Part shown: positions 1,796 through 11,016 of the stretch, piece by piece
How positions within the stretch are numbered: the first letter of the stretch is position 1
Layout of the letters: each line of letters begins with the position of its first letter
Assembly (NCBI RefSeq): GCF_026157105.1
Contig: NZ_JANPVQ010000001.1
Location: forward strand, 427,501-491,500
DNA from: Sphingomicrobium marinum
Lineage (GTDB): Bacteria > Pseudomonadota > Alphaproteobacteria > Sphingomonadales > Sphingomonadaceae
Direction of reading: 5' to 3'
DNA: 64,000 nt
Notes under the pieces: generated by a model
Database searches by the model: none
Seen by the model: only the letters and a program-made list of their open reading frames with translations
Told to the model about the DNA's origin: nothing
Position numbers and translations under genes: made by a program

Positions 1796-1831
1796 GGCTC
1801 CAGCGCCGCCGTACAGGCGCTCTAAGAAAAA

Positions 1832-1860
1832 AAGGCCCGCGCGGGGCACGCGCGGGCCTT
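1832..1860. terminator. Intrinsic terminator between convergent etfA and the next gene
   Basis: AAGGCCCGCG and CGCGGGCCTT form a 10-bp perfect stem around a 9-base loop. A run of A precedes it on the plus strand, so the T-run is read by minus-strand transcripts arriving from the gene at 1884-2600. For etfA the hairpin probably works as the convergent partner. Confidence 0.75.
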
Positions 1861-1883
1861 CGCTCCCGTTGGGGGGGCGGGGA

Positions 1884-2600
1884 CTAGTTGGCGTCGGCCC
1901 GGCCTTCTGCCTTGCCTTCACCGCGCGCCGAACCGCTGGCGCCGATCGAACCGGACAATGGCAGGGTCGAGGGGCTGACGCTGCCCGCGGCCTGACCCGC
2001 GGCATTCGCGGCCGCATTGGCCGCAGCCGAACCCGTCTGGCGGGTGCGTATAACAGCGCTGTTCGCCGCGCCCGTCGCCTTGGCCTGACCTTCAGCGGCT
2101 GCGTTGCCCGCGGCGCTGGCGGCGCCATTGGCGATGCCGGTCACGTCGTTAGTGCCAAGCGTATCGACGCCAAAGCTTGCGCTCTTGTTGGCCGATGCAT
2201 TGCCCGAGGCAGAACCACCGGCATTCATCCCGGCAGCCGATGTCGCACTGTTGGCGACGGCATCGACCGTGCCGGCAAGCCCGGCATTACCCGACGCCGA
2301 ACCGCTGCGCGCATCGACATTGCCATCGGCGTTACCCGACGCGTTCCCGGTCACCGAGCCGCTAACGCTGTTGGCGATGTTGCGGGTCGATCCGAGCAGG
2401 TCGCCGTTCGACAGCGTGCCGCCAAGGCCGCCGCGTCCGCTGAGCGTGCCGCGCGCGACATTACCGACCGTGCCGTCGACAACGCCGCCGACCGTACCGT
2501 TTACGGTGCCGCTCAGGTCGGGCACCAGCTGCGCCGAAGCGGGCGTGGCGGCAAGGCTGGCACCGGCCATCAGGGCAATAGTGATCATCTTGGTGTTCAT
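1884..2600 (-). CDS. Secreted low-complexity Gly/Ala/Asn/Ser-rich protein
   Basis: A 238-aa protein of unknown function. Residues 1-23 form a clear Sec signal peptide ending ATPASA; the mature chain starts QLVPDLSGTVNGTVGG and continues as a soft repeat of Gly, Ala, Ser, Asn, Asp, Val and Thr. I see one Phe and no Trp, Tyr or Cys in the mature part, so it is unlikely to have a compact hydrophobic core; a surface, matrix or fibre role is a guess. The mature start QLVPDL is repeated by the subtilase encoded just upstream (2694-4028), and both genes carry the same promoter-like motif as the divergent ECF sigma gene. That suggests one regulon and possibly protease and substrate or protease and partner. 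Confidence 0.75.
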   Translation of the reverse strand: MNTKMITIALMAGASLAATPASAQLVPDLSGTVNGTVGGVVDGTVGNVARGTLSGRGGLGGTLSNGDLLGSTRNIANSVSGSVTGNASGNADGNVDARSGSASGNAGLAGTVDAVANSATSAAGMNAGGSASGNASANKSASFGVDTLGTNDVTGIANGAASAAGNAAAEGQAKATGAANSAVIRTRQTGSAAANAAANAAGQAAGSVSPSTLPLSGSIGASGSARGEGKAEGRADAN

Positions 2601-2649
2601 CTGTATTCTCCTTCTTCCGCGCAGACCCTCCCGGGGTGCGCTACGTGAA

Positions 2650-2678
2650 GGAAACGACAGCCAATCGGCGCTTCATCC
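2650..2678 (-). promoter_or_regulatory. ECF-type promoter motif of the low-complexity protein gene
   Basis: Read on the minus strand this is GGATGAAGCG, 12 bases, then GTCGTTTCC overlapping the expected -10. The same arrangement (GGATGAAACG, 12 bases, CGTTTC) occurs in both directions at 4057-4088, in front of the subtilase and the ECF sigma gene. ECF promoters commonly have a GGAA-like -35 and a CGTT-like -10, so this is a good candidate for the target of the local sigma factor. Confidence 0.55.
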
Positions 2679-2693
2679 GCGAAAAGTCGAAAA

Positions 2694-4028
2694 TTATTTC
2701 GCGCCGACCTGATCGGGGTCGATCCGGCAGGGCATGCATACGATGCCGCGCCCGACGCGGCCCTTGCCCTTTATCGCCTCGCGACCAAGTGAAATGACAT
2801 TGCCGCGCGCAAGCAGCCGCGCGCTGGCGAGCGGCGCGGCAAAGCTGGTGCCGCGCACTTCGATATAGCCCCCGCCGGGGCGTGCCGCGGCAAGGTCTGC
2901 GCCGGGCGCTGCGAAGGCGAGATTGTCCGTGCGTCCGGCCTCGCGCAGGGCGCGGCCATGTTCATCGACGCCGGTGATCGCGACCACGCCGGGATAGGAT
3001 GCGGGGTAGGGATCGGGCGCGGCCGGGCCGTCATTGCCAACCGCAGCCACGACCTCGGCACCTTGGCGGCGTGCGCCCGCGATGGCGCGTTCGACCAGGG
3101 CGTTTCGCGGGCCGACCAGGCTGATGTTGATCACGTCCGCCTTCTCGGCCACCGCCCAGGCGATGGCATTGGCGATCGCCGACGCCGAGCCCGCCGCCGG
3201 GCTGCCGCCATAAATGTCAGCGACCAGCAGGCGCGTTCCCCGCGATGCGCCGCGAAACGCGCCATCGTTACCGACGACGAGCGAGGCGACCGCAGTGCCG
3301 TGGCCGGTCGGCACGACCTGACTGGCAAAGGCGCGCTGACGCAGATTTGCGGACGACAAGGAGGGATGCGATGCGACGCCGCCGTCGATGATGGCGATCG
3401 TCCCCGATGCAGCGCGCGGCTGGCCCATCGCCGCCGCGGCATTTGTCAGCGGCGAAAGGCCGCCGCCGGCGGGTTCGAAGACATGGTTATAGTCGATTAC
3501 CAGCTCGGGCGCGGCCTTGCGCAGCCGCTTGATGGCATCGCGTATGTCGTCGTCCTGCGCGGGGACCGCGAGCGTGACGAGCCGCACGCCGAGCGCATCG
3601 AGCCGGGTTTCCGCGATCGGGCTGAAACCGGCGGCGCGGGCGCGGGCAAGACCGGTCGCATCGGGATCGACCAGCAGCAACTCGCCGCGGCGGACCGGAT
3701 AGTCGTCGCGGTCGCTATCGAGTTCGGCTGGATAGTCATCGATCAGCTTTTCAAGCCGTGCTTCGCGCAGCCGCTGGAGATCGCGTCGCCCAAGCCGAGC
3801 CGAAATACCCGACTGGCCCACCCGGTTGAGGGTCGGTGTCGCAAGTTCGGCTGCCTGCGGTTCGCGCTCCAACAAGTCCCCGACCACGGGAATGTTGACG
3901 TTGGGCAAGGGCGGCAGGAGGCCGGGTCCGTTGGTCAGCCCGCCAAGATCGGGCACCAGCTGTGCCGACGCAGGGAGCGACAGCAAGGCCGCACAGGCGG
4001 CTATCAGGGGCAGACGATGAGTGGACAT
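2694..4028 (-). CDS. S8 family secreted serine peptidase (subtilase)
   Basis: A 444-aa exported subtilisin-like protease. Signal peptide 1-22 (LPASA), then QLVPDLGG, a Pro/Leu-rich stretch, a prodomain-like region to about residue 200, and the catalytic domain. The triad is visible: Asp at about 215 (IAIIDGG), His at about 243 (GHGTAVAS) and Ser at about 395 (GTSFAAP), with the oxyanion Asn at about 332 (AVGNDG). The C-terminus is short and ends with a CMPC pair that could bind metal or form a disulfide. It lies upstream of, and co-directional with, the low-complexity secreted protein that shares its mature N-terminus, and divergent from an ECF sigma factor. Confidence 0.92.
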   Translation of the reverse strand: MSTHRLPLIAACAALLSLPASAQLVPDLGGLTNGPGLLPPLPNVNIPVVGDLLEREPQAAELATPTLNRVGQSGISARLGRRDLQRLREARLEKLIDDYPAELDSDRDDYPVRRGELLLVDPDATGLARARAAGFSPIAETRLDALGVRLVTLAVPAQDDDIRDAIKRLRKAAPELVIDYNHVFEPAGGGLSPLTNAAAAMGQPRAASGTIAIIDGGVASHPSLSSANLRQRAFASQVVPTGHGTAVASLVVGNDGAFRGASRGTRLLVADIYGGSPAAGSASAIANAIAWAVAEKADVINISLVGPRNALVERAIAGARRQGAEVVAAVGNDGPAAPDPYPASYPGVVAITGVDEHGRALREAGRTDNLAFAAPGADLAAARPGGGYIEVRGTSFAAPLASARLLARGNVISLGREAIKGKGRVGRGIVCMPCRIDPDQVGAK

Positions 4029-4056
4029 GGTATTTTCCTATATTATGCATGGTCGC

Positions 4057-4088
4057 GGATGAAACGACAGCCGGCGCACGTTTCATCC
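4057..4088. promoter_or_regulatory. Symmetric divergent ECF promoter region
   Basis: GGATGAAACG at 4057-4066 and its exact complement CGTTTCATCC at 4079-4088 flank 12 bases. Because the motif is self-complementary, each strand reads GGATGAAACG-N12-CGTTTCATCC, so one site could serve as a promoter for both the sigma gene (start 4101) and the subtilase (start 4028). The arms could also act as an operator. The related minus-strand copy at 2650-2678 supports the promoter reading. Confidence 0.6.
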
Positions 4089-4100
4089 CCATGAGGTGCC

Positions 4101-4610
4101 ATGAATTCATCCTGTACGAGCTTCGAAGCCCAGTTTCGCGCGATCTATCCGCGCCTTCGTCGTTTTGCCTATTCGCTCACCAGCCAGTCGGCCGATGCCG
4201 ACGACTTGCTGCAACGTGCGAGCGAGCGCGCATTGCGCAATTTCGCCAAGTTCGAGCAGGGTACACGCTTCGACAGCTGGATGTTCCAGCTTACCCGCAA
4301 TCTTTGGATCGATACGGTCCGCGCGCGTGGACGCCGCGCCAACCGCGAGGTGCCCGAGGAAGCGGGGCTGGGCGTGGGTCACGATCCGCGCCCTGCCACG
4401 CATGCGGCGATCGATCTGCAAAAGGCGATGAACGCCATGGCGCAATTGCCCGAGGAGCAGCGCGAGATCGTCGCGCTCATCCTGGTCGATGGCATGGGAT
4501 ACCGCGAAACCGCCGAATTGCTCGACTTGCCGATCGGCACGGTCTCGAGCCGTCTCGTGCGGGGGCGCAAGGCACTCTTGGAAATGCTGGGCGAGGGAAA
4601 TGATGACTGA
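4101..4610 (+). CDS. ECF-family RNA polymerase sigma factor
   Basis: A 169-aa sigma-70 family protein with only regions 2 and 4, the ECF layout. Region 2 runs over residues 10-70 (LRRFAYSLTSQSADADDLLQ, FDSWMFQLTRNLWID) and region 4 over about 108-160 (LPEEQREIVALILVDGMGYR, then the helix-turn-helix TAELLDLPIGTVSSRL). It overlaps the following membrane protein, a probable anti-sigma factor, by 8 bases. Its own promoter region is shared with the divergent subtilase, which fits autoregulation plus control of the two secreted proteins. Which ECF group it belongs to cannot be told from reading. Confidence 0.92.
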   Translation: MNSSCTSFEAQFRAIYPRLRRFAYSLTSQSADADDLLQRASERALRNFAKFEQGTRFDSWMFQLTRNLWIDTVRARGRRANREVPEEAGLGVGHDPRPATHAAIDLQKAMNAMAQLPEEQREIVALILVDGMGYRETAELLDLPIGTVSSRLVRGRKALLEMLGEGNDD

Positions 4611-5262
4611 CGAAGAAGAATTTTTCGCCTGGCTCGACGGCGAACTGGATCCCGAGACTGCAGCACGCGTAGCCGCACGGGTCGACGCTGATCCTGCCTT
4701 GCAGGCATTGGCGGACGAGCATCGCGCAATGACCCGCGATCTGCGCGCTGCGTTCGATCCGGTGATGACTGCGGCGCCCGAAACGGCGGCAATGGAGCCC
4801 GCAGCGCCCTTGCCCGCCAATGATAACCGTCCCTGGTGGCGCGCCGCGGCGGCGGCCGCGGCCGTCGCGCTGGCGTTCGTTGGCGGCACGCAATTCGCAG
4901 GATCGCCCGGTCTGATCGACCATCGCGGCGGACAGATGGTGGCGACCGCTTCGCTGCACGAGGCGCTCGACCGCCAGCTTGCTTCGGCGCCTGAGGGCGA
5001 TATTCGGATCGGGGTCAGCTTTGCGCAGGCGGACGGCAGTTTTTGCCGCAGCTTCAGCGTCGCGGGCGATAGCGGCCTTGCCTGCCGAGACGGCGACGCT
5101 TGGCGGGTCGAGGGCCTGTTCTCGGGCGAAGACGTGGGCGGCGACTTCCGCATGGCGAGCGGCACCGATCCGCGCCTCGCCGCGCTGATCGATGCGCGCA
5201 TTGCAGGCGAACCACTGGACGCCGCGGCCGAAACGGCGGCGCGTGAGGCAGGCTGGCGTTAA
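4603..5262 (+). CDS. Probable anti-sigma factor (single-span membrane protein)
   Basis: A 219-aa protein with an acidic N-terminal helical segment (DEEEFFAWLDGELDPETA, typical of cytoplasmic anti-sigma heads), one Ala-rich membrane helix at about residues 78-97 (WWRAAAAAAAVALAFV), and a periplasmic domain of about 120 residues with two Cys. No zinc-binding HxxxCxxC motif is visible. The start at 4603 is preferred over the in-frame ATG at 4600 because the GAGGG at 4593-4597 is then properly spaced; either way it overlaps the sigma gene, a hallmark of a sigma/anti-sigma pair. The stop codon overlaps the convergent nhaA end. Confidence 0.75.
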   Translation: MTDEEEFFAWLDGELDPETAARVAARVDADPALQALADEHRAMTRDLRAAFDPVMTAAPETAAMEPAAPLPANDNRPWWRAAAAAAAVALAFVGGTQFAGSPGLIDHRGGQMVATASLHEALDRQLASAPEGDIRIGVSFAQADGSFCRSFSVAGDSGLACRDGDAWRVEGLFSGEDVGGDFRMASGTDPRLAALIDARIAGEPLDAAAETAAREAGWR

Positions 5263-6672: not shown

Positions 6673-8721
6673 ATGGACAAAAGCGGCGAATATCTGGCGT
6701 TCCTGAGCTACAGTCATCGCGACAAGCAGTTTGCGAACTGGCTGCACCGCGCGCTTGAATTTTATGCGCTGCCAAGCAGGCTCGTTGGGCGCGATAGCCG
6801 CCTTGGGCCAATTCCGCGCCGCATCCGCCCGATCTTCCGCGATCGTGAAGAGCTGGCGGCCGCCGAAAATCTCGGGCGGCGGCTGGAATCGGCGCTGGAA
6901 AATTCCAAGGCGCTGATCGTCCTGTGTTCGCCGGCTGCCGTCGCATCGCGCTGGACCAACGAGGAAATTGCGACCTTCAAGCGGGTCAATCCGGGCGCGC
7001 CGGTCTTGGCGGCCATCATCGACGGCGAACCGTTTGCCAGCGATATGGCGGGGCGCGAGGACGAAGAATGCTTCCCGCCCGCGCTTCGTTACAAGCTCGA
7101 CGCGGAAGGCCAGCTGACCGACCAGCGCGCCGAGCCTGTTGCCGCCGACTTCCGCGAAGAAGGCGACGGCAAGCGGCTTGGGAAACTGAAGCTGATCGCC
7201 GGATTGTTCGGGCTTGGCCTCGATGACCTCGTCCAGCGCGATGCGGCGCGGCGCAACAAGCGCTTCGCTTGGATCGCCGCAGCCTCCGCGCTCGGCATGG
7301 TCGGCACGACCGGTTTGTCACTCTACGCCATCGACCAGCGGGAAGAAGCGATTGAACAGCGCGAACAGGCCGATGGTCTGATCGAATTCATGCTGACCGA
7401 CCTGCGCGAGAAACTCGAGCCGGTCGGGCGGCTCGACGTGCTCGAAGCGGTCGGTGATCGCGCGCTCGATTATTATGCACAGCAGAAATTGGCCGATCTC
7501 GATGCAAACGCGCTGGGGCGGCGCTCGCGCGCGCTTCACCTGATGGGCGAGGTTTCGATGTTGCGCGGTGATAACAAGATGGCGCTTGAGGGCTTTCGCA
7601 ATGCGGCCGCTACGACGGAAGCGCTACTGGAGCGCCAGCGCGACGACTGGCAGCGGATTTATGATCACGCGCAAAGCGTCTTCTGGGTTGGTTATCTGGC
7701 TGACGAGCAGGGACGACAGGATGAGGCATTGGCGAGGTTTGTCGAATATCGCAATTTGACGGCGCGGCTGGTGGAAATAAAACCCGACGATCGGGCATCG
7801 CAACTGGAGGCCTCTTACGGGCCCATTAATCTTGGCTATGCCTATCGTAAGCACCGGCGGTATGACGAAGCACTGAGGGCCTTCGAAGAAGCCCAGAAGC
7901 GCCTTGCCGCGATCAACCCGCCCGATCGCGATACGTTGCTCACGATGGTACAGACCCACGCGCACAGCGCCACGATCTATACGTCTGACGGGCAGATCGA
8001 GAAATCGATAGATGCGAGGCAGCGTCAACTCGAGGCACTGGATCACGACTTGCTCGACCAGAGCGACGCGGCGGTAAGAGAAATGCGAGGATATGGAGAG
8101 GCCAATCTTTCCATGTCCCACTTCGTCCGAGGCGATTTGTCAAAAGCCGACGAATGTCTCGCCAAGGCAGAAGCAATCTTTGCCGATCTTTCGACCACAG
8201 AACCTGGCAACCAAGAATGGCGGGAAACACGCGCAAACTCGCTGGTAAGTCGAGGGCTGATCGAGCTTGCCCGTGGCGAGCGGACCGCAGCACGCGGAAG
8301 GGCGATCCAAGCGACCGCCGACATTCGAGCGCTGCTCCAAGGGTCGGCCGACGACGTATCTCTTCAAAAGAAGCTGTTGGCGGCGCTCATGTTATCGGTG
8401 CTCAGTGGGAATCCCGTTGACGCACAGGAAGCGCAAAGGCTGGTCGCAGACTTGCGGGGTGGCGGCGGATTTCGCGACGATATTCAGTCGCGGCACAATG
8501 CCGCGACTTTACTGATGGCGCTTGGCGATCGAGCTGGGACGCCGGCCGAACGCAACTCATTGTGGAGCAAGTCTCGCACCATCCTTGAGCAAGCGGACGT
8601 CACCAATCCCTTTATCGCCTTGCCCCGCGCCGCGCTTGATCGGCGAAGCGGCACGAACACCACAAAACTTCCGCCGGGGTTCGATCCCGACTCGGCATTC
8701 GGAGGCATTTTTCGGGATTGA
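6673..8721 (+). CDS. TIR-domain membrane protein with C-terminal TPR-like repeats
   Basis: A 682-aa protein. Residues 6-130 are a TIR domain: first strand and helix YLAFLSYSHRDKQFANWL, BB-loop-like FRDREEL (55-61), and the W-x-x-x-E motif W94-E98 whose Glu is the NADase residue in catalytic bacterial TIRs. After a linker one membrane helix spans about 198-220 (FAWIAAASALGMVGTTGLSL), then a conserved-looking juxtamembrane block (FMLTDLREKLEPVGRLDVLE) and about 400 residues of helical TPR-like repeats (SRALHLMGEVSMLRGDNKMA, YRKHRRYDEALRAFEEAQ). From topology the TIR is expected in the cytoplasm and the TPR part outside it. It heads a likely three-gene operon with a small unknown protein and a SLOG-like 4-TM protein. 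TIR NADase or cyclic ADP-ribose synthase activity is inferred, not shown. Confidence 0.85.
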   Translation: MDKSGEYLAFLSYSHRDKQFANWLHRALEFYALPSRLVGRDSRLGPIPRRIRPIFRDREELAAAENLGRRLESALENSKALIVLCSPAAVASRWTNEEIATFKRVNPGAPVLAAIIDGEPFASDMAGREDEECFPPALRYKLDAEGQLTDQRAEPVAADFREEGDGKRLGKLKLIAGLFGLGLDDLVQRDAARRNKRFAWIAAASALGMVGTTGLSLYAIDQREEAIEQREQADGLIEFMLTDLREKLEPVGRLDVLEAVGDRALDYYAQQKLADLDANALGRRSRALHLMGEVSMLRGDNKMALEGFRNAAATTEALLERQRDDWQRIYDHAQSVFWVGYLADEQGRQDEALARFVEYRNLTARLVEIKPDDRASQLEASYGPINLGYAYRKHRRYDEALRAFEEAQKRLAAINPPDRDTLLTMVQTHAHSATIYTSDGQIEKSIDARQRQLEALDHDLLDQSDAAVREMRGYGEANLSMSHFVRGDLSKADECLAKAEAIFADLSTTEPGNQEWRETRANSLVSRGLIELARGERTAARGRAIQATADIRALLQGSADDVSLQKKLLAALMLSVLSGNPVDAQEAQRLVADLRGGGGFRDDIQSRHNAATLLMALGDRAGTPAERNSLWSKSRTILEQADVTNPFIALPRAALDRRSGTNTTKLPPGFDPDSAFGGIFRD

Positions 8722-9210: not shown

Positions 9211-11016
9211 GTGACGTCATCGAGCAACCAATATCGCCCGCGGCTCACTTTGCGCTTCGGGATCACCGGGCACCGTCCGCCGCGGCTCGATCTTGCGCAT
9301 AGCGATACGATCCGCACCGCGTGTGCCGAAATCTTCAACGTGGCGCGCGGCTCGCTGGTCACACTGCACTCGGCGCACAAATCGGTGTTCTCTGATGTTA
9401 CGCCCGAAGTGAAACTTGTCACCTCGCTGGCGGAGGGCGCGGACGTGCTCGCAGCCGAAGCTGCGCTCGACACAGGCAACGCCATCGCCGCCTGCCTTCC
9501 TTTTCCGCAAGATGTCTACGCCAAGGACTTCGGGGCGGAGGAATGGGCGCGTACCGAAAAAATGCTCGCCGCCGCCGACACGGTGATGTCGATCGACGAT
9601 CATTCGCAGGGCGAGACTGCGGCCTACGAAGCGGCGGGGCGTGTCGTGCTGGCGCAATCCGATATCCTCATCGCCATCTGGGACGGGGAAGCAGCACGCG
9701 GACGCGGCGGCACGACGCAGGTCATCGCCGAAGCGGTGGCGCTGCACCAACCCGTCATCCACATCGATGCCAAGGGCAAGAAGCCCCCCGAACTGCTGTG
9801 GAGCGGGCTTCACGAAGCGGTGCCAGATCGCCCCTCGCTCGACGGGGTGCAGCGGGCCGATGCGCGTCTCGCGCTGCCGCACCTGATCGAGGCGTTATGC
9901 GCGCCGCCCGATGGCGACGATGCGGCCGAACTCGCCAGCTTCATCGCGCCGCAGCACAGCAAACCCAAATCGTCGCTCGGGTGGCCGCTGCTGCTGGCGG
10001 CAACGGGCGCCAAGCCGTGGAGCAGGATCTCGACCCGGGCGCCGACGGCGGACGATAGTGCCCGCTGGCTAAAGCCGCACACCGAACCGTTTGCCCAAAA
10101 TGGGCGCTACGGCGAACGACTCAATGGCAGCATGCTGTGCCGGTTCGGACGGGCAGATGCCCAGGCCAACGATTTCGCGCTGCGGTTCCGGTCGAGCTTC
10201 GTGACCAATTTCGCGATGGCGGGCCTTGCTGTCTTTCTTGCCTTGCTGGGCCTGCTCATTCCCGAAGCGAAGAAACTGCTCATCGCACTCGAACTGCTGG
10301 TGATCCTCCTGATCATCGCCAATACCCGTTTTGCCAATCGCCAGAATCTGCATCGCTGCTGGCTCGACCGGCGACATCTTGCCGAACGGCTTCGCTTGCT
10401 GGCGATGGCATCGCCGCTCGGACGGCTCAGCCTGCGCGATGTCGAGGACGGCACGACCCACCCGGGCTGGGTCAGCTGGTATGCGCGCGCTTCCGCACGC
10501 GAGCTGGGACTAGTGCGCGCGACCTTCGATCGCGCCTATCTGCAAAAGGTGCGCGGCGTGATGCTCTCGTTGATCGACGAGCAGCTGGGCTACCACAAAG
10601 GTAATGCCCATTCGATGCACCATGCCAACCACCAGCTGCACCGCGCCGGCGACCTGCTGTTCGTCGGCACGATCATCGCTTGCGTCACCTATCTCGCGAT
10701 CAGCTTCGGCTTCGGCAAGGTGGGCGATGTTTTTGGCATGAGCGGCACGGGATTGGTGACCTTCATCACCGCCCTGTTCCCGGCGCTGGCGGCGGCGCTG
10801 TATGGCATCCGCATGCAGGGCGACTTCGCAGCGACTGGCGAACGCTCGGCGGCAATCTCCCACCAGCTCGGCAAGCTGCGCAATGCGCTGGACGCTGACC
10901 CGCTATCCTTCGACCGGCTGGCAGAACGCTCGCGGCGACTTGGCGAGATCATGTTATCCGAAGTGCAGCAGTGGCACCTGCATTACGAAACGCGGCCGAT
11001 GACGCTGCCGGGCTAA
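9211..11016 (+). CDS. SLOG-like domain protein with four C-terminal membrane helices (SLATT-like)
   Basis: A 601-aa protein. The N-terminal 200 residues look like a SLOG/LOG-type Rossmannoid domain: first strand and loop RLTLRFGITGHRPPRL (GITGHR at 17-22), SLAEGADVLAAEAAL, and the late SDILIAIWDGEAARGRGGTT loop before a helix. Two hydrophobic hairpins follow at about 331-373 and 480-537, separated by a helical block (WLDRRHLAERLRLLAMASPL) that recalls SLATT 2-TM effector domains, and ending in a helical tail. SLOG modules are known to bind nucleotide-derived ligands, and SLATT domains are predicted pore-type effectors. The start is GTG at 9211 with GAGGGGG upstream; no in-frame ATG exists before about residue 118. 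Confidence 0.7.
   Translation: MTSSSNQYRPRLTLRFGITGHRPPRLDLAHSDTIRTACAEIFNVARGSLVTLHSAHKSVFSDVTPEVKLVTSLAEGADVLAAEAALDTGNAIAACLPFPQDVYAKDFGAEEWARTEKMLAAADTVMSIDDHSQGETAAYEAAGRVVLAQSDILIAIWDGEAARGRGGTTQVIAEAVALHQPVIHIDAKGKKPPELLWSGLHEAVPDRPSLDGVQRADARLALPHLIEALCAPPDGDDAAELASFIAPQHSKPKSSLGWPLLLAATGAKPWSRISTRAPTADDSARWLKPHTEPFAQNGRYGERLNGSMLCRFGRADAQANDFALRFRSSFVTNFAMAGLAVFLALLGLLIPEAKKLLIALELLVILLIIANTRFANRQNLHRCWLDRRHLAERLRLLAMASPLGRLSLRDVEDGTTHPGWVSWYARASARELGLVRATFDRAYLQKVRGVMLSLIDEQLGYHKGNAHSMHHANHQLHRAGDLLFVGTIIACVTYLAISFGFGKVGDVFGMSGTGLVTFITALFPALAAALYGIRMQGDFAATGERSAAISHQLGKLRNALDADPLSFDRLAERSRRLGEIMLSEVQQWHLHYETRPMTLPG

Follow-up and report, generated by a model that had tools for sequence, protein, structure and literature searches.

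Four genes lie between positions 1884 and 5262 of the window, by which we mean the whole 64,000-nucleotide stretch of Sphingomicrobium marinum DNA analyzed here. On the forward strand, a gene for a 169-aa ECF sigma factor (4101-4610) is followed by one for an anti-sigma factor (4600-5262), and 11 nt are common to the two, from the anti-sigma start (4600) to the sigma stop codon (4608-4610). Divergently, on the reverse strand, lie the gene for a secreted S8 subtilase zymogen (2694-4028) and a gene for a low-complexity secreted protein of 238 aa that is rich in Gly, Ala, Ser, and Asn (1884-2600). A hairpin resembling an intrinsic terminator, with a 13-bp stem and then a T run, is located 3′ of the low-complexity gene (1831-1861, reverse strand). 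The sigma/anti-sigma overlap, the divergent subtilase, and the low-complexity gene were each found as the original prediction had described them. Elsewhere in the window, beside nhaA, a forward-strand gene (6673-8718) encodes a protein of 682 aa with TPR repeats and, at its N-terminus, a TIR domain (TIR_2, ThsB_TIR); 3′ of it are a gene for a 124-aa protein and then a 601-aa ORF (9211-11016), both without a Pfam match.

The four proteins of the locus

The sigma factor has regions 2 and 4 but lacks regions 1 and 3 (Pfam Sigma70_r2 and Sigma70_r4_2; NCBIfam TIGR02937 above cut-off), which places it among the ECF (group 4) sigma factors. The AlphaFold model of the anti-sigma factor (pLDDT 85; residue numbers refer to the 219-aa form that begins at 4603) shows a helical domain in the cytoplasm, a transmembrane (TM) helix at residues ~77-95, and an exported alpha/beta domain with no fold match in the PDB. 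With its co-encoded sigma factor, this is the predicted architecture of a membrane anti-sigma factor. Cys148 and Cys161, both in the exported domain, are invariant across 41 aligned homologues. A zinc-binding (ZAS) anti-sigma factor was rejected, as these are the sole cysteines and the cytoplasmic domain has no HxxxCxxC. An EcfG/NepR/PhyR system was rejected as well. The geometry of the module promoter described below resembles the EcfG promoter of S. melonis, GGAAC-N17-20-GTT (PMC6599016), but its -35 element is GGATGAA and not GGAAC, the regulon is very small, and in place of NepR/PhyR there is a membrane anti-sigma factor with an exported domain, similarity to NepR reaching only E=0.022. 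By description, not by sequence, the sigma/anti-sigma pair resembles Swit_3836/Swit_3837 of Sphingomonas wittichii RW1, an ECF sigma-24 factor and a putative transmembrane anti-sigma factor that are induced by NaCl (PMC3238334). By analogy, this induction offers a lead to the signal that the module may sense.

The subtilase precursor comprises, in order, a signal peptide, a disordered extension that starts with QLVPDL, a prodomain (~80-188), a catalytic domain, and a C-terminal C431xxC434. In the structural model (pLDDT 83), residues 1-55 are disordered and residues 190-206 form a flexible linker. Asp215, His243, Asn332, Ser395, Cys431, and Cys434 are invariant among 34 homologues; the invariant Asp215/His243/Ser395, a match to Pfam PF00082, and the subtilisin fold match place the protein in family S8. 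Its best PDB match was unprocessed pro-subtilisin E (3whi). A T7SS mycosin (TIGR03921; 95 bits versus a cut-off of 279) and a cyanobactin PatA protease (54 versus a cut-off of 421) were rejected. The invariant catalytic residues and the match of prodomain and catalytic domain to pro-subtilisin E are as in other secreted S8 subtilisins, whereas the disordered QL-starting extension before the prodomain, the C-terminal CxxC, and the constant sigma/anti-sigma linkage are not.

The low-complexity protein, hereafter the glycine-rich protein, had no Pfam or NCBIfam match and was described by alignment. The beginning of its predicted mature form is GxxxG rich, and D-x-RSGSAS and GLAG motifs were conserved among 31 aligned co-located homologues. 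The homologues at L052, L053, L054, L056, and L057 have an extra C-terminal PRC-barrel-like stretch that the window protein is without; a PRC-barrel-like Pfam match, below threshold, was found only in the homologue from genome G116.

Predicted promoters and conservation of the module

The motif GGATGAA-n-CG-N12-CGTTTC occurs exactly at 4057-4084 (forward strand), 4061-4088 (reverse strand), and 2651-2678 (reverse strand). The original prediction had placed this motif before the sigma, subtilase, and low-complexity genes, and an exact copy does precede each of them. However, the first two copies belong to a single palindrome, read on its two strands, and the physical sites therefore number two, not three. 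This 32-bp palindrome, GGATGAAACG-N12-CGTTTCATCC (4057-4088, both strands), is predicted to be a divergent pair of sigma-dependent promoters: its forward strand faces the sigma gene, its reverse strand faces the subtilase gene, and the -35 element of either strand overlaps the -10 element of the opposite strand. A second predicted sigma-dependent promoter, the nonpalindromic GGATGAAGCG-N12-CGTTTC (2651-2678, reverse strand), begins 16 bp past the subtilase stop codon and precedes the glycine-rich gene.

When the whole 2.24-Mb host genome was searched, as had been proposed with the prediction, the motif proved not to be common: there were three exact matches, every one at the sigma/subtilase locus, and the palindrome was present as a sole copy. 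Chance origin was rejected, since a motif with 15 specified bases is expected ~0.004 times per host genome (a uniform-base estimate). The one match with a single mismatch straddled the start codon of a transporter-like, unrelated ORF. The looser pattern GGATKAA-N15-CGTT gave no further convincing site in the host genome, adding only one, which again covers a start codon, that of an unrelated ORF, and a larger regulon in the host was rejected on this basis. The conserved, near-exclusive motif is probably the sigma factor's own promoter.

Of 301 genomes from the order, 29 have the perfect palindrome, in a single copy each except for two in G277. This genome, from the same genus, carries the subtilase twice and has two palindromic promoters, both complete (L106; C1:1954851 and C1:2671546). 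The subtilase-side motif was present at 37 of 45 loci and the GGATGAA form of the sigma-side motif at 30 of 45; seven subtilase-side sites read TTAATCC, which is the GGATTAA form on the sigma side. An equivalently placed promoter for the glycine-rich gene was found in 21 of the 23 complete loci within the genus and in 4 of 19 outside it. In a scan of 71 genomes of the genus, nearly all motif sites in module-positive genomes fell at the module, and module-negative genomes had at most one or two sites, which were scattered. At L114 and L115 (G404 and G357), a subtilase homologue lacks an adjacent sigma gene, yet a GGATGAA-type site lies past the subtilase stop codon. At the distant loci L199-L203, where GGATGAA is absent, the region upstream of the sigma gene appears on inspection by eye to contain inverted TTATTCC / GGAATAA elements, perhaps another symmetrical promoter pair.

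The gene set is conserved along with its promoters. A subtilase search of 121 Sphingomonadaceae genomes gave 43 matches, and sigma and anti-sigma genes adjoined the subtilase in all of the best 30 of these 43 loci. A profile search for the anti-sigma factor in 121 Sphingomonadaceae genomes found 39 positive genomes, and the subtilase was present in all 39; the four subtilase-only genomes had weak matches. Directly after the subtilase, a Gly/Ala/Ser-rich secreted protein was encoded in 20 of the 20 neighborhoods read at 15 kb. Of 71 genomes in the genus, 25 encode the subtilase next to a sigma gene, and the presence of the module is therefore patchy. Full-length relatives of the anti-sigma factor also occur in other alphaproteobacterial families. 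In three loci from two of these families (f46 and f70), the divergent subtilase is retained together with the identical palindrome, and one locus in each family encodes a downstream protein with QLLGGGG or QVLGGSG. More distant loci have a different promoter, no GGATGAA palindrome, and, where read, no recognized glycine-rich gene or C-terminal CxxC. Since these loci keep the sigma factor, anti-sigma factor, and subtilase, not every version of the module needs the missing parts. A single-protein scan of genome contigs gave only one match, a 93%-identical MAG. No description of the four-gene module was found in the literature; it may have been listed earlier within the ECF classification.

The nearly locus-restricted, conserved promoter and the predicted TM helix and exported two-Cys domain of the anti-sigma factor strongly support, at the level of sequence, the original view of the locus as an autoregulated envelope system. 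As in RpoE-RseA and SigW-RsiW, the sigma factor has only sigma2 and sigma4, a membrane anti-sigma factor is co-encoded, and autoregulation is predicted to operate through conserved -35/-10 elements. Unlike in those systems, the host regulon is apparently the locus itself, the predicted output comprises two secreted proteins, a pro-subtilase and a Gly/Ala/Ser-rich protein, and the putative promoters for autoregulation and for output lie on opposite strands of one palindrome. The invariant pairing of subtilase and anti-sigma factor, and the exported domain and TM helix of the latter, would also suit a self-amplifying circuit in which the subtilase is a feedback (site-1) protease that cuts the exported domain, with the glycine-rich protein as a competing substrate or brake. 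However, most of the subtilase is predicted to be produced once sigma is active, making it an unlikely primary sensor, and we think such a feedback role improbable.

N-termini of the two secreted proteins

Cleavage after the predicted AxA site would yield mature proteins starting QLVPDLGG (subtilase) and QLVPDLSG (glycine-rich protein), the QLVPDL codons lying at 3945-3962 and 2514-2531, respectively, both on the reverse strand. The genome-wide search suggested with the original prediction found QLVPDL-coding DNA only twice in the host, in these two genes; neither of the two outcomes that had been named as refuting the prediction was therefore obtained. In 38 genomes, both proteins have Q at position 1; L occupies position 2 in 35 of 38 subtilases and in 35 of 38 partners, and L or V predominates at position 3. 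Q at +1 is partly selected by the calling of cleavage sites, and L at +2 and +3 is free of such selection. From residue 4 the two families diverge, with mostly P in the subtilase and G in the partner.

As background, signal peptides were collected from sixteen 20-kb host samples, the window, and 20 neighborhoods with a regex predictor, not SignalP. In the 20 neighborhoods, 28 of 29 module proteins start with Q-L/I after the AxA site, compared with none of nine neighboring proteins cut between AxA and Q, and all 28 proteins with such a start are subtilases or glycine-rich proteins. The host sample held seven other proteins with AxA before Q, none with L second, and a Q-L-(L/V) start was absent from all 16 other signal peptides of this type sampled. 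A generic signal peptide with Q after AxA was rejected as the cause, since Q at +1 is common and Q-L/I is found only in these two proteins.

An exact QLVPDL shared by the pair is confined to the host and one 93%-identical relative. In another relative, G247, the subtilase has QLIPDLG and the partner QLVGNLGG, which suggests that the partner's likeness to QLVPDL arose recently. This likeness, together with similarity in the window DNA that covers the end of the signal peptide and the QLVPD codons, could reflect common ancestry or a short gene conversion between the leader and Gly-rich linker of the two adjacent genes, without a present role as a tag. The DNA match is short and patchy, however, and Q-L-(L/V) is kept in both genes across dozens of genera while the linkers otherwise diverge, which suggests constraint. 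We regard this explanation as possible but doubtful.

N-termini from the same genome were more alike than shuffled pairs over the first 5 to 6 residues (P=0.0002), a likeness that weakens to P=0.04-0.16, also given as P=0.04-0.06, once the window lineage is set aside and that is drawn from related genomes that are not independent. The original prediction had taken the shared N-terminus to be a sorting, processing, or docking tag, perhaps one by which the subtilase recognizes its partner through the sequence that its own precursor carries. This proposal can draw on the same-genome likeness and on the presence of Q-L-(L/V) in both proteins across genera and its absence from other sampled secreted proteins; set against it are the weakening of that likeness outside the window lineage, the divergence of the families from residue 4, and the position of the subtilase copy ahead of a removable prodomain. 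Because QLVPDL precedes the prodomain in the model, the autoprocessed, active enzyme should lose it. A tag read by the subtilase is in our judgment quite unlikely. What survives of the proposal is the short start: judged from these alignments, the real shared feature is Q-L-(L/V), conserved in both proteins in about 35 of 38 genomes and specific to them among the sampled signal peptides, and exact QLVPDL identity is lineage specific. Q-L-(L/V) probably matters for export or maturation.

A proposed circuit

We consider it fairly probable that the locus is a dedicated, self-contained ECF sigma module that combines anti-sigma release, a palindromic promoter, and a paired secreted protease and glycine-rich protein. 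At rest, the membrane anti-sigma factor would hold the sigma factor, and an envelope signal at its exported Cys-containing domain would release it. Sigma-bound RNA polymerase would then use one palindrome to transcribe its own operon or, divergently, the gene for the secreted pro-subtilase, and would transcribe the glycine-rich gene from the second promoter copy; conservation of the sequence strongly supports both steps. Outside the cytoplasm, the subtilase and the glycine-rich protein would act as a pair, a cooperation whose basis is their co-location and predicted co-regulation. Maturation of the subtilase would remove the prodomain plus the QL-starting extension, and the most likely task of the enzyme would be to mature, trim, or turn over its glycine-rich partner, or proteins of the envelope, when the same stress acts. 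Q-L-(L/V) would most likely aid export or maturation of both proteins and would not be a mark on the active protease; candidate roles are the choice of signal peptidase, pyroglutamate capping, and docking of propeptide and partner at the same site. A further and speculative idea, to which we give little credence, is that Q-L-(L/V) on propeptide and partner is a code that directs a co-encoded protease and substrate to the same site of maturation or assembly. If true, alphaproteobacterial envelopes would have an N-terminal pairing signal of a kind not described before.

The module would be a minimal ECF circuit whose regulon of three promoters appears to be complete; within it, a single symmetrical DNA element is predicted to serve as autoregulatory and output promoter together. 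In dozens of genera it also links one particular protease with an uncharacterized family of secreted proteins rich in Gly, Ala, and Ser, and one locus may thus make it testable what these low-complexity proteins do and what the conserved Q-L start is for.
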